Positions 2,446 through 8,176 of a DNA stretch of 21,095 nucleotides are shown one piece after another. The position numbers were made by a program, and so were the translations under genes. The number at the start of each line of letters is the position of its first letter. Position 1 is the stretch's first letter. Below the pieces are notes generated by a model. It worked only from the letters and a program-made list of their open reading frames with translations, was not told where the DNA came from and did not search any database. The stretch comes from a virus: the IMG/VR virus record IMGVR_UViG_3300030451_004603, positions 1 through 21,095 of that record. One strand, given 5' to 3'.

Positions 2446-2866
2446 GAGAGATGCAGCTGATTCATGGTTTTCTAAGTGCGTTAGAGAGCGAACAAACTAC
2501 ACCTGCGAATACTGCCACAAACAGTATGATAGGTCGTCTACTGGTTTGCACTGTTCTCATTATTGGGGTAGGGCATCTAAATCAGTCAGGTGGGCAGGTG
2601 ACAATGCCTTTTCTCACTGTTACTCATGCCATCAAAAACTCTCAGCTAACCCCCACGACTTTACATATTGGGTAAATAAAATGCTTGGGGACACCCGATA
2701 TGAAGCACTGCTTGATAAAAAGAATGATACAAGTATTGGTAAGCAACTTCTTAAAGATAATAAGGCAGGGTTGATTGCCAAGCATTATAAAGAACAACAC
2801 AAAATTTTGACTGAAAAAAGACAACAAGGCGAAACCTTATACATAGATTTTATTGATTATTATTAA
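2435..2866 (+). CDS. NinG/Rap-like HNH zinc endonuclease
   Basis: A 143-aa protein. The likely start is TTG at 2435, eight bases after AAAGGG. It begins GIKRDAADSWFSKCVRER, the usual lead-in of NinG-type proteins. Cys24-x2-Cys27 and Cys62-x2-Cys65 would bind zinc. His39, His42 (HCSHYWGR), Asn57 (GDNAFSHC) and His66 form an HNH-like (beta-beta-alpha metal) centre, followed by KLSANPHDFTYWV. NinG/Rap of lambda is a structure-specific nuclease acting on recombination intermediates; that role is from family knowledge. The gene lies with ERF-like and NinB-like genes, as in a nin region. A generic HNH nuclease is the alternative. Confidence 0.7.
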   Translation: MGIKRDAADSWFSKCVRERTNYTCEYCHKQYDRSSTGLHCSHYWGRASKSVRWAGDNAFSHCYSCHQKLSANPHDFTYWVNKMLGDTRYEALLDKKNDTSIGKQLLKDNKAGLIAKHYKEQHKILTEKRQQGETLYIDFIDYY

Positions 2867-2876
2867 GGAGATAATC

Positions 2877-3671
2877 ATGTCATTTTATTGCGATGAGCCA
2901 ACAGTGATTAGTTTCTCTGGTGGCAGAACCTCAGCATTCATGCTTTACAAAACAATAGAAGCACACGATGGTGTTTTGCCAGACCATTGTCATGTTATTT
3001 TTTGTAACACTGGTAAAGAAATGATGCAAACACTTGAGTTTGTAGAGGAGTGTTCACTTACATGGGGCTGTAAGATTACCTGGTTGGAATACACTGGCAA
3101 GAAGTCTTACAAAGTAACAGACTACAATCATGCCTCAATCAATGGTGAACCTTTTGACCAACTTATAACAGATAGAAAGTATTTACCTAACTCATTAGCA
3201 AGGTTTTGCACCTCAGAGTTGAAAGTTCTTACTATCGATAGATATATGAAAGATCAAGGTTTTGACGAATATCAGAGTATGGTAGGTATTCGTGCTGACG
3301 AACCAACTCGTGTTATAAAGATGCGAAACAAAGAAAACTATTTAGTTCCCTTAGCAGATGAAAACATAACAAAACACGACATTTACAGCTTTTGGAATAG
3401 TCAAAAGTTTGACTTAAACTTACCAAATGAGCGTGGAATTAATAATTTGGGCAATTGTGATCTTTGTTTTTTAAAAGGCACAAAAATTAGGCTTTCAATA
3501 CTTAAACAGTACCCAGAGAAAGCAGATTGGTGGATTGCTCAAGAGAAAAAGATTAATGCAAGATTCAGAAAAAATACCCCATCTTATGAAGAACTACAAA
3601 TTATAGCGACAGATCAGTCAGGATTTGATTTCTTTGATGAGCAATCAATATCTTGCTTTTGTGGAGATTAG
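2877..3671 (+). CDS. PP-loop/PAPS-reductase-like enzyme
   Basis: I chose ATG 2877 because AAGGAG ends six bases upstream. The 264-aa product begins with the PP-loop motif SGGRTSA (residues 14-20), which binds the pyrophosphate of a nucleotide in the PAPS reductase/ATP-pyrophosphatase superfamily. Other features are FCNTGKE (42-48), RFCTSELKV (109-117), GIRADEPTRV (137-146) and a Cys pair CDLC (194-197), with CFC (260-262) at the C-terminus. The cysteines could hold an iron-sulfur cluster or carry persulfide. Superfamily members activate sulfate, thiolate tRNA or insert sulfur into the DNA backbone (DndC type). Placement among DNA-processing genes favours nucleic-acid modification, but no dndD or dndE partner is seen. 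Confidence 0.75.
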   Translation: MSFYCDEPTVISFSGGRTSAFMLYKTIEAHDGVLPDHCHVIFCNTGKEMMQTLEFVEECSLTWGCKITWLEYTGKKSYKVTDYNHASINGEPFDQLITDRKYLPNSLARFCTSELKVLTIDRYMKDQGFDEYQSMVGIRADEPTRVIKMRNKENYLVPLADENITKHDIYSFWNSQKFDLNLPNERGINNLGNCDLCFLKGTKIRLSILKQYPEKADWWIAQEKKINARFRKNTPSYEELQIIATDQSGFDFFDEQSISCFCGD

Positions 3672-7164: not shown

Positions 7165-7314
7165 ATGACAATTATAGAAAGAAACTACGATTTTGAGCCA
7201 CCCACTAAAGAAGAATTAGAGTTGCTTGATTGCGAAAAACTATCAGAAAGTGAATTAGAGATGATTGGTTACACTTCTACTGAGGAGTTCTGGCAAAGAT
7301 ATGCGAGTTCTTGA
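7165..7314 (+). CDS. Small acidic hypothetical protein, 49 aa
   Basis: A 49-codon frame from ATG 7165 to TGA 7314, filling the gap between the NinB-like gene and the methyltransferase. It starts MTIIERNYDFEPPTKEELEL and ends in YTSTEEFWQRYASS. It is strongly acidic in the middle and probably helical. It overlaps the methyltransferase start by 14 bases, which would couple translation. Possible small accessory of the methyltransferase, by position only. Confidence 0.55.
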   Translation: MTIIERNYDFEPPTKEELELLDCEKLSESELEMIGYTSTEEFWQRYASS

Positions 7315-8176
7315 TCTTTTCAGTGGTATTGGTGGATTTAGTTTAGGTTTAGAAAAGTGTGGCATGAAAACAGTCGCATTTTGCGAAATAGACGAATATG
7401 CTAAAAAGGTTCTAAAAAAACATTGGTCTGATGTGCCAATATATGATGATGTTACAAAACTATCTAAAGAGGTGTTAGATAATGACAGAATCTCAGTTGA
7501 CCTTATTTGCGGTGGATTCCCATGCCAAGACATCAGTGTCGCAGGGGTCAAAAAGGGTATTGAGGGGGAGAGGTCAGGGCTGTGGAGTGAGTTCGCCAGA
7601 CTTATTAGCGAAATACGACCCAAATACGCAATCGTGGAAAATGTCCCAAACCTCCTTTCTGGAGACAGAGGGAGATGGTTTGGCAGAGTTCTCGGAGACT
7701 TGGCCAAGATCGGGTATGATGCGGAATGGCATTGTATATCAGCTTCCGAACTTGGAGCAAGACACCACCGAGATAGAGTCTGGATCATCGCATATTTGGG
7801 CAACCCCTCAAGCGATGGATGGGATGAGAATCAGTCAGAAACCCAGAGATCGAAATCAACTGTCAAGGAAAGCGAGAGGGGGAGGATGCTCCAATCTGAG
7901 GGAACAAGTAATGTTTCCAACTCCGAACGCATCGGACAATCGAGATCGAGGGTGCATGGAAGACGAATCAGTAAAGAGGAGAATAAAGATAGGGAAGCAA
8001 GTTGGCTTATCCACAGCTGTCAAGGAGACTCGTCAATCTGGCACACTGAACCCCAAGTGGGTAGAGTGGCTAATGGGATTCCCAACAGATCACACAGACT
8101 TAGATGTCTAGGGAACGCAGTTGTTCCCCAGATACCAGAGTTAATAGGAAAGGCGATTATGGATGCTGAGAGTTAA
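7301..8176 (+). CDS. C5-cytosine DNA methyltransferase (Dcm-like)
   Basis: ATG 7301 gives MRVLDLFSGIGGFSLGLE, the family's usual N-terminus; an upstream in-frame TTG would add residues the family lacks. The 291-aa protein has motif I DLFSGIGG (5-12), motif IV GGFPCQDIS with catalytic Cys75, motif VI ENV (113-115), motif VIII RHHRDRVW (154-161), and the terminal GNAVVPQIPELIG (271 onward). The short variable region between motifs VIII and IX (about 168-240) is hydrophilic and low in complexity; it is where the nested gene overlaps. The enzyme would methylate C5 of cytosine at an unknown site, protecting phage DNA from restriction. No cognate nuclease is present. Its stop interleaves with that of the convergent endolysin gene. 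Confidence 0.92.
   Translation: MRVLDLFSGIGGFSLGLEKCGMKTVAFCEIDEYAKKVLKKHWSDVPIYDDVTKLSKEVLDNDRISVDLICGGFPCQDISVAGVKKGIEGERSGLWSEFARLISEIRPKYAIVENVPNLLSGDRGRWFGRVLGDLAKIGYDAEWHCISASELGARHHRDRVWIIAYLGNPSSDGWDENQSETQRSKSTVKESERGRMLQSEGTSNVSNSERIGQSRSRVHGRRISKEENKDREASWLIHSCQGDSSIWHTEPQVGRVANGIPNRSHRLRCLGNAVVPQIPELIGKAIMDAES
7482..8111 (+). CDS. Nested gene inside methyltransferase, +1 frame, 209 aa
   Basis: A complete 209-codon frame lies wholly within the methyltransferase gene, in the +1 frame. ATG 7482 has AAGAGGTG seven bases upstream. The protein begins MTESQLTLFAVDSHAKTS. It then carries LAKYDPNTQSWKMSQ (43-57), ETWPRSGMMRNGIVYQLP (72-89), WATPQAMDG (106-114), FPTPNASDNRDRG (145-157) and NPKWVEWLMGFPTDHTDL (190-207). 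I recognise these motifs from phage proteins often annotated next to or as part of cytosine methyltransferases. Motifs in fixed order, an RBS and absence of stops argue for real coding. Function unknown; a methyltransferase partner or specificity subunit is a guess. Confidence 0.75.
   Translation: MTESQLTLFAVDSHAKTSVSQGSKRVLRGRGQGCGVSSPDLLAKYDPNTQSWKMSQTSFLETEGDGLAEFSETWPRSGMMRNGIVYQLPNLEQDTTEIESGSSHIWATPQAMDGMRISQKPRDRNQLSRKARGGGCSNLREQVMFPTPNASDNRDRGCMEDESVKRRIKIGKQVGLSTAVKETRQSGTLNPKWVEWLMGFPTDHTDLDV

Follow-up and report, generated by a model that had tools for sequence, protein, structure and literature searches.

The C5-cytosine methyltransferase gene of the viral DNA studied here almost certainly codes for a second protein in another frame, and the two products most likely form one two-subunit enzyme of the M.EcoHK31I kind, in which the small subunit (beta) acts as an exchangeable, possibly multispecific small domain for the catalytic subunit (alpha). 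The window, which is the whole stretch that was analysed, is a 21,095-base IMG/VR virus contig in which replication, SSB, NinB-like, endolysin and tail genes were recognised, and no near relative of it was found in the annotated phage collection. A phage-borne homologue of phosphoadenosine phosphosulfate reductase (phrog_424, E 1.3e-54) is also present at 2853-3671.

The nested reading frame and its start

Beta lies entirely within the alpha gene, in the +1 frame of alpha, and starts behind a Shine-Dalgarno (SD) site. The features of the locus are as follows.

7301..8176, + strand: alpha, C5-cytosine methyltransferase, catalytic large-domain subunit (291 aa from ATG 7301)
7313-7336, + strand: alpha motif I
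7469..7474, + strand: SD site GAGGTG, 7 nt upstream of the beta ATG
7482..8111, + strand: beta, nested gene, predicted small-domain / target-recognition subunit (ATG, 209 aa)
7482..7793, + strand: beta N-terminal region over alpha motifs IV-VIII, with similarity above the synonymous-shuffle null
7511-7528, + strand: alpha motif IV (GGFPCQ)
7614-7643, + strand: YDPNTQSWKM in the beta N-terminal region
7637-7657, + strand: alpha motif VI
7692-7748, + strand: SETWPRSGMMRNGIVYQLP in the beta N-terminal region
7760-7786, + strand: alpha motif VIII
7797..8038, + strand: alpha variable segment, shadow of the beta modules, predicted disordered
7797..7910, + strand: beta module 1 (type C), WATPQAMDGMRISQKPRDRNQLSRKARGGGCSNLREQV, putative target-recognition domain (TRD) cassette; same type in 24 loci
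7914..8021, + strand: beta module 2 (type A), FPTPNASDNRDRGCMEDESVKRRIKIGKQVGLSTAV, putative TRD cassette; its type recurs in 35 viral and cellular loci
8046..8084, + strand: motif IX in the beta frame (LNPKWVEWLMGFP), with the strongest beta-frame selection
8105-8131, + strand: alpha motif X (CLGNAVVPQ)

The program-listed alpha ORF begins upstream, at TTG 7265. A 49-aa ORF of no clear family at 7165-7314, which overlaps the alpha start by 14 nt, is possibly translationally coupled to alpha. The original prediction of a 209-codon, ATG-started ORF in the +1 frame of the methyltransferase was borne out at 7482-8111, and all the peptides that it quoted occur in the beta translation.

With the alpha protein fixed and its own codon usage kept, about 5 in 10,000 synonymous shuffles left the +1 frame open over the beta span, where about 6.5 stops would be expected, and the +2 frame of that span contains 17 stops. 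The same shuffle gave a median openness probability of 0.002 for 54 relatives that were fetched without reference to beta; their summed log10 probability is -137, which overstates the evidence because kinship was left uncorrected. As a rough baseline, 12% of the other long ORFs of viral loci stay open in the +1 frame for at least 600 nt, and the openness of a single genome is therefore suggestive only. The argument that decides for the coding of beta, as judged from the sequences, is conservation and not openness.

The site GAGGTG is a six-base match to the anti-Shine-Dalgarno sequence. An SD match of at least 6 nt was detected at 43 of 148 beta starts, compared with 7 of 444 control positions, while 22 of the 148 have no recognisable SD and five have no start codon in range. 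This enrichment favours the internal initiation of beta.

Conservation and selection in both frames

Beta has a significant full-length match to phrog_1008 (PHROG 1008; residues 4-207, E 7.8e-31), whose label "DNA methyltransferase" was probably inherited from gene context; the window beta itself carries no catalytic motif, and searches of Pfam and NCBIfam returned no family matching it. Beta queries matched 39 phage records, 67 IMG/VR loci and eight plasmid records, as well as 80 loci in cellular DNA from many phyla, including an archaeal MAG, and 11 of 274 gammaproteobacterial genomes gave a match at E <= 1e-10. For an unbiased viral sample, 80 loci were fetched by alpha residues 1-66 only, which lie nearly all upstream of the overlap. 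A beta homologue was present in the +1 frame of 79 of them, and the remaining contig stops short of beta. The cellular loci have beta in the +1 frame in 80 of 80 cases, which describes spread and not frequency, since they were fetched by the beta motif IX.

Several annotated records (L069, L070, L071, L236, L237 and L243) list alpha only in their gene tables, and the beta frame is open wholly or partly in them. At 2995-3002 of locus L031, alpha is broken at motif IV (GGFP, stop, PCQ) by an apparent 6-nt insertion with TGA, which adjoins an ATG, and beta is open. The prophage of E. coli PCP07014 (L242, 3000-3761) carries an alpha pseudogene with an in-frame stop, and its beta is interrupted at about the same place; both frames are open in its relative from E. 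coli PT62 (L243).

For pairs of relatives, one frame was shuffled among its synonymous codons and the similarity of the other frame was re-scored, with 54 alpha-selected viral genes and 44 cellular genes as samples. The z values obtained are descriptive and not a test, because the pairs are non-independent; for beta given alpha, the viral and cellular medians are -0.1 and 0.0, respectively, upstream of the overlap, which serves as the control, 2.6 and 2.0 over motifs IV-VIII, 1.4 in both samples for the variable region and 6.0 in both for motif IX. For alpha given beta, the viral genes gave medians of 10.1 (motifs IV-VIII), 1.4 (variable region) and 2.9 (motif IX). When the window was compared with its homologues, the similarity of beta reached z 15.9 (L001) and z 9.9 (L002). 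The similarity of each frame exceeds the shuffle null, and thus selection acts on both proteins within one stretch of DNA. The variable region, which contains the modules, appears to evolve fast in both frames, and its weak selection (median z 1.4 in each) is what would be expected for fast-evolving TRDs and is not decisive.

The beta ORF is, by this sequence evidence, almost certainly real and coding. The claim of true two-frame coding in the original prediction is upheld by the homologues, by the open frame in relatives and by a suppression limited to the overlap, i.e., the third-position freedom of the methyltransferase is suppressed within the overlap and not upstream, the comparison that had been proposed. 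A search for homologues had also been proposed, and phrog_1008 answers to it; frequent stops in the +1 frames of related phages had been named as a refutation, and the frame proved open in essentially all related methyltransferases.

Division of the motifs and exchange of modules

Alpha possesses motifs I, IV (PCQ), VI (ENV), VIII and X of the C5-cytosine methyltransferases (PF00145), and its residues P74, C75, Q76, E113 and N114 are invariant in alignment A4. The match to PF00145 (E 1.2e-53) extends only up to profile position 197 of 324. Motif IX was not found in the alpha chain, and the motif IX peptide sits in the +1 frame. In the AF2 model of alpha, pLDDT is mostly >94 for residues 1-160, mostly 40-60 for residues 170-265 and about 93-97 over the C-terminal helix (last 20 residues), and there is no confidently folded small domain. 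The model fits M.HhaI (Z 26.0, rmsd 2.0 A) along 200 of its 327 residues. The large domain of M.HhaI comprises residues 1-193 plus 304-327, which is about the size of the fitted length. The early end of the profile match, the gap in the AF2 model and this large-domain-sized fit make alpha look like a large domain without its small domain.

The variable segment of alpha is poorly conserved and shows weak selection in the alpha frame. It had been pointed out as an unusually hydrophilic variable region of the methyltransferase; as a correction, it is best taken for a shadow cast by the nested recognition modules. Alpha residues 247-261 (8039-8083, WHTEPQVGRVANGIP), which lie directly over the beta motif IX, are highly conserved in the alpha frame and have AF2 pLDDT mostly <50, and they may reflect a true constraint on alpha, the shadow of motif IX or a mixture of the two. 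Beta alone was modelled by AF2 with low confidence (pLDDT 58.5, pTM 0.24), and a Foldseek search with this model gave no fold match, both of which count against the two-subunit reading. The only matches of the beta profile in the PDB are to plant DRM methyltransferase at motif IX, with E about 1, which is not significant alone.

Behind motif VIII, beta consists of modules of about 37 aa with the frame [WLFYM]xTPxAxD...L..xV, which number 1-7 per beta at a median spacing of 37 aa and are nearly absent from the alpha frame. The clustering of 514 modules revealed recurring types in differing orders, such as C-A in the window, H-A in L002, x-C-E in L001, J-N-Q-A in L175, Q-N-T-A in L180, C-B-D-L-A in L014 and C-K-B-D-L-A in L017. 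L014 and L017 are 97% identical except for a clean 120-nt insertion in the gene, and L017 and L018 differ by a whole module of 114 nt (compared genes 97-98% identical). The window and L001 share 95% nucleotide identity in module 1 and 87-100% elsewhere in the gene, compared with 64% in module 2, while identity to L002 is 61-73% over alpha motifs I-VIII, module 1 and the tail and 82-83% in module 2 and motif IX. Judging by these comparisons, the modules are gained, lost and exchanged as whole units, and the window gene is a mosaic of L001-like and L002-like modules. The known module size of multispecific methyltransferases is about 40 aa, and the arrangement here, in which several modules of about that size lie between motifs VIII and IX and vary as units, is that of a tandem-TRD methyltransferase.

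In some relatives, the motifs have moved between the frames. Motif IX directly precedes motif X in the alpha frame of L058, L065 and the Candidatus Megaera plasmid gene L237, and the coverage of PF00145 becomes 2-323 of 324 in L065 and 3-322 of 324 in L237; the modules are kept in beta although motif IX has moved. In L006, L011, Anthony gp80/gp79 and Samy gp49/gp50, alpha stops behind motif VIII, and the modules, IX and X belong to the beta frame, beta being annotated in Anthony and Samy as a stand-alone or partly overlapping gene. The mycobacteriophage gene Estave1 gp75 encodes its modules, at the TRD position, as well as IX and X in the methyltransferase frame. The strongest argument that beta completes alpha is that motifs switch frames while the whole enzyme stays constant. 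The original suggestion made the nested product a partner of the methyltransferase or a factor for its specificity; a specificity role is supported by the relatives whose beta outruns the alpha ORF and by those with modules and motif IX in the methyltransferase frame.

The N-terminal part of beta is retained in L058, L065 and Estave1, though modules or motif IX moved to alpha; this points to a role beyond what the two-subunit model explains and counts against it. In Estave1 (Mycobacterium phage, L244, 2311-3414), the +1 frame is still open for this part (EYSETWPKTGYMSDGRAYELP), which seems to be kept for a reason of its own. An open and conserved beta frame extends well beyond the annotated gp50 start on its upstream side in Streptomyces phage Samy (L073, 2501-2858), and this start is therefore probably placed too far downstream. 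A candidate natural fusion, L153, was rejected, as an indel breaks its motif VIII.

Proposed enzyme, alternatives and known systems

In the proposed enzyme, alpha would be the catalytic large domain, with SAM binding, the catalytic Pro-Cys, motifs I-VIII and the terminal motif X. Beta would be translated from its own ribosome-binding site inside alpha and would supply the missing small domain, consisting of the conserved N-terminal region, the tandem modules and motif IX. The two would bind each other and act as a heterodimer on DNA, in which alpha methylates while the binding and choice of the site fall to the beta modules and motif IX, and beta would be needed for activity. Gain, loss or exchange of modules may reset the specificity, and hence the protection from host restriction, while the catalytic half is kept. 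As an orphan phage methyltransferase with a multispecific array, the enzyme could shield phage DNA against several restriction enzymes; no restriction gene was recognised beside the locus among some neighbouring ORFs searched with general family libraries, which makes an orphan protective role natural. We lean slightly towards regarding the modules as recognition cassettes, i.e., an exchangeable array of about 37-aa units in the second frame of a catalytic gene, which would define a large unrecognised class in phages and bacteria with beta as a plug-in multispecific small domain. If so, inserted cassette DNA must stay open in two frames.

It is extremely improbable that the beta ORF is a by-product of codon bias and conserved methyltransferase motifs and encodes no functional protein. 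The conservation of alpha does force some similarity in the +1 frame (null identity about 24% over motifs IV-VIII), and the 12% baseline for +1 runs of at least 600 nt fits such an origin, but the similarity of beta rises above the shuffle null in the overlap and not upstream, SD sites are enriched at beta starts, Anthony and Samy have annotated beta genes that stand alone or overlap partly, and the recurring modules occupy the beta frame and almost never the alpha frame. Ribosomal frameshifting, by which the beta frame would be entered as an alternative C-terminus of a fused alpha-beta chain with no internal initiation, is decidedly unlikely. It would agree with the constant +1 relation, with the missing clear SD in about a sixth of relatives and with the single-chain Estave1, which shows that the joined order is viable. 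However, in most relatives beta begins close to alpha motif IV, with an SD of its own and a start that varies little in position, a shift after motif VIII would skip the conserved N-terminal region of beta, and the fused chain in the window would be without motif X.

The assignment of the TRDs to beta is not forced, because the predicted TRD of M.EcoHK31I has been placed in the large subunit, the small one having only motif IX (PMC3404938). Beta might accordingly provide motif IX and help folding, with target recognition in the alpha variable segment and the modules as structural repeats, and the weak selection of the module region in both frames is compatible with this. Such a division of labour is nevertheless unlikely here, as the alpha variable segment is predicted to be disordered and is poorly conserved, the modules persist in beta where motif IX went to alpha (L058, L065 and L237), and in Estave1 they occupy the TRD position of the methyltransferase frame. 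Finally, beta could be an overprinted protein with an unrelated job, such as anti-restriction or host takeover, given that its N-terminal region has no assigned function and occurs only over methyltransferase genes in this material; motif IX and the homologues in the methyltransferase frame tie its C-terminal half to the enzyme, and we consider this reading very unlikely.

If the two-subunit enzyme is real, a long same-strand overlapping gene pair would be conserved in bacteria, archaea and phages and yet omitted by annotation, the inspected records usually giving alpha only. It would also explain the apparent absence of a recognition domain in these methyltransferases, and clones of alpha in which the beta frame is damaged may lack activity. 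Moreover, the family would offer natural swappable recognition cassettes for cytosine methylation and a clean case for evolution under two-frame constraint.

For M.EcoHK31I, Lee, Kam and Shaw are said to have found in 1995 that the large gene contains the small one in a different frame and that both proteins are needed, and the window beta is likewise nested in another frame. The motif division is also shared: the large polypeptide of M.EcoHK31I contains motifs I-VIII and X together with a predicted TRD, and motif IX is in the small polypeptide (PMC3404938), as the window alpha contains I-VIII and X and the small beta contains IX. The likeness described here is one of motif division and gene layout; searches of plasmids and E. 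coli for M.EcoHK31I found nested relatives, none identifiable as M.EcoHK31I. Unlike the window enzyme, which is phage-borne and has two recognisable exchangeable modules in beta, M.EcoHK31I (YGGCCR) is described as a restriction-modification methyltransferase with its TRD predicted in the large subunit. M.AquI is a split C5-methyltransferase whose alpha carries motifs I-VIII (PMC3404938), and its layout, with IX and X in beta, is shared by L006, L011, Anthony and Samy, whereas the window has motif X in alpha and a nested beta gene instead of one that follows or partly overlaps. As two-polypeptide C5-methyltransferases are thus known from M.AquI and M.EcoHK31I, the window does not represent a new kind of enzyme.

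The multispecific methyltransferases of Bacillus phages (SPR, phi3T, rho11 and H2) possess tandem TRDs in one chain (PMC8936443), which lie between VIII and IX, and the window resembles them in this arrangement; they are single chains in one frame, whereas the window array is in a second frame and a second protein. A phage methylase gene that conceals a protein in a second frame is also known from the ShiLan type, in which an out-of-frame HNH endonuclease lies within the methylase (PMC11855218). That nuclease is a mobile insertion, sporadic and in another frame, while beta is near-universal in its methyltransferase family. The mycobacteriophage methylases of the dual-frame family (cluster F1, L244; PMC11855218) may be the genes that the ShiLan HNH element enters. 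No description of the nested overlap, the dual-frame selection, the motif migration or the cassette arrays was found in the literature searched, which did not extend to subscription literature and REBASE. Compared with these known systems, what is apparently new is the near-universal nesting in a widespread phage and cellular family, the selection in both frames, the migration of IX and X between frames and the second-frame arrays of cassettes.
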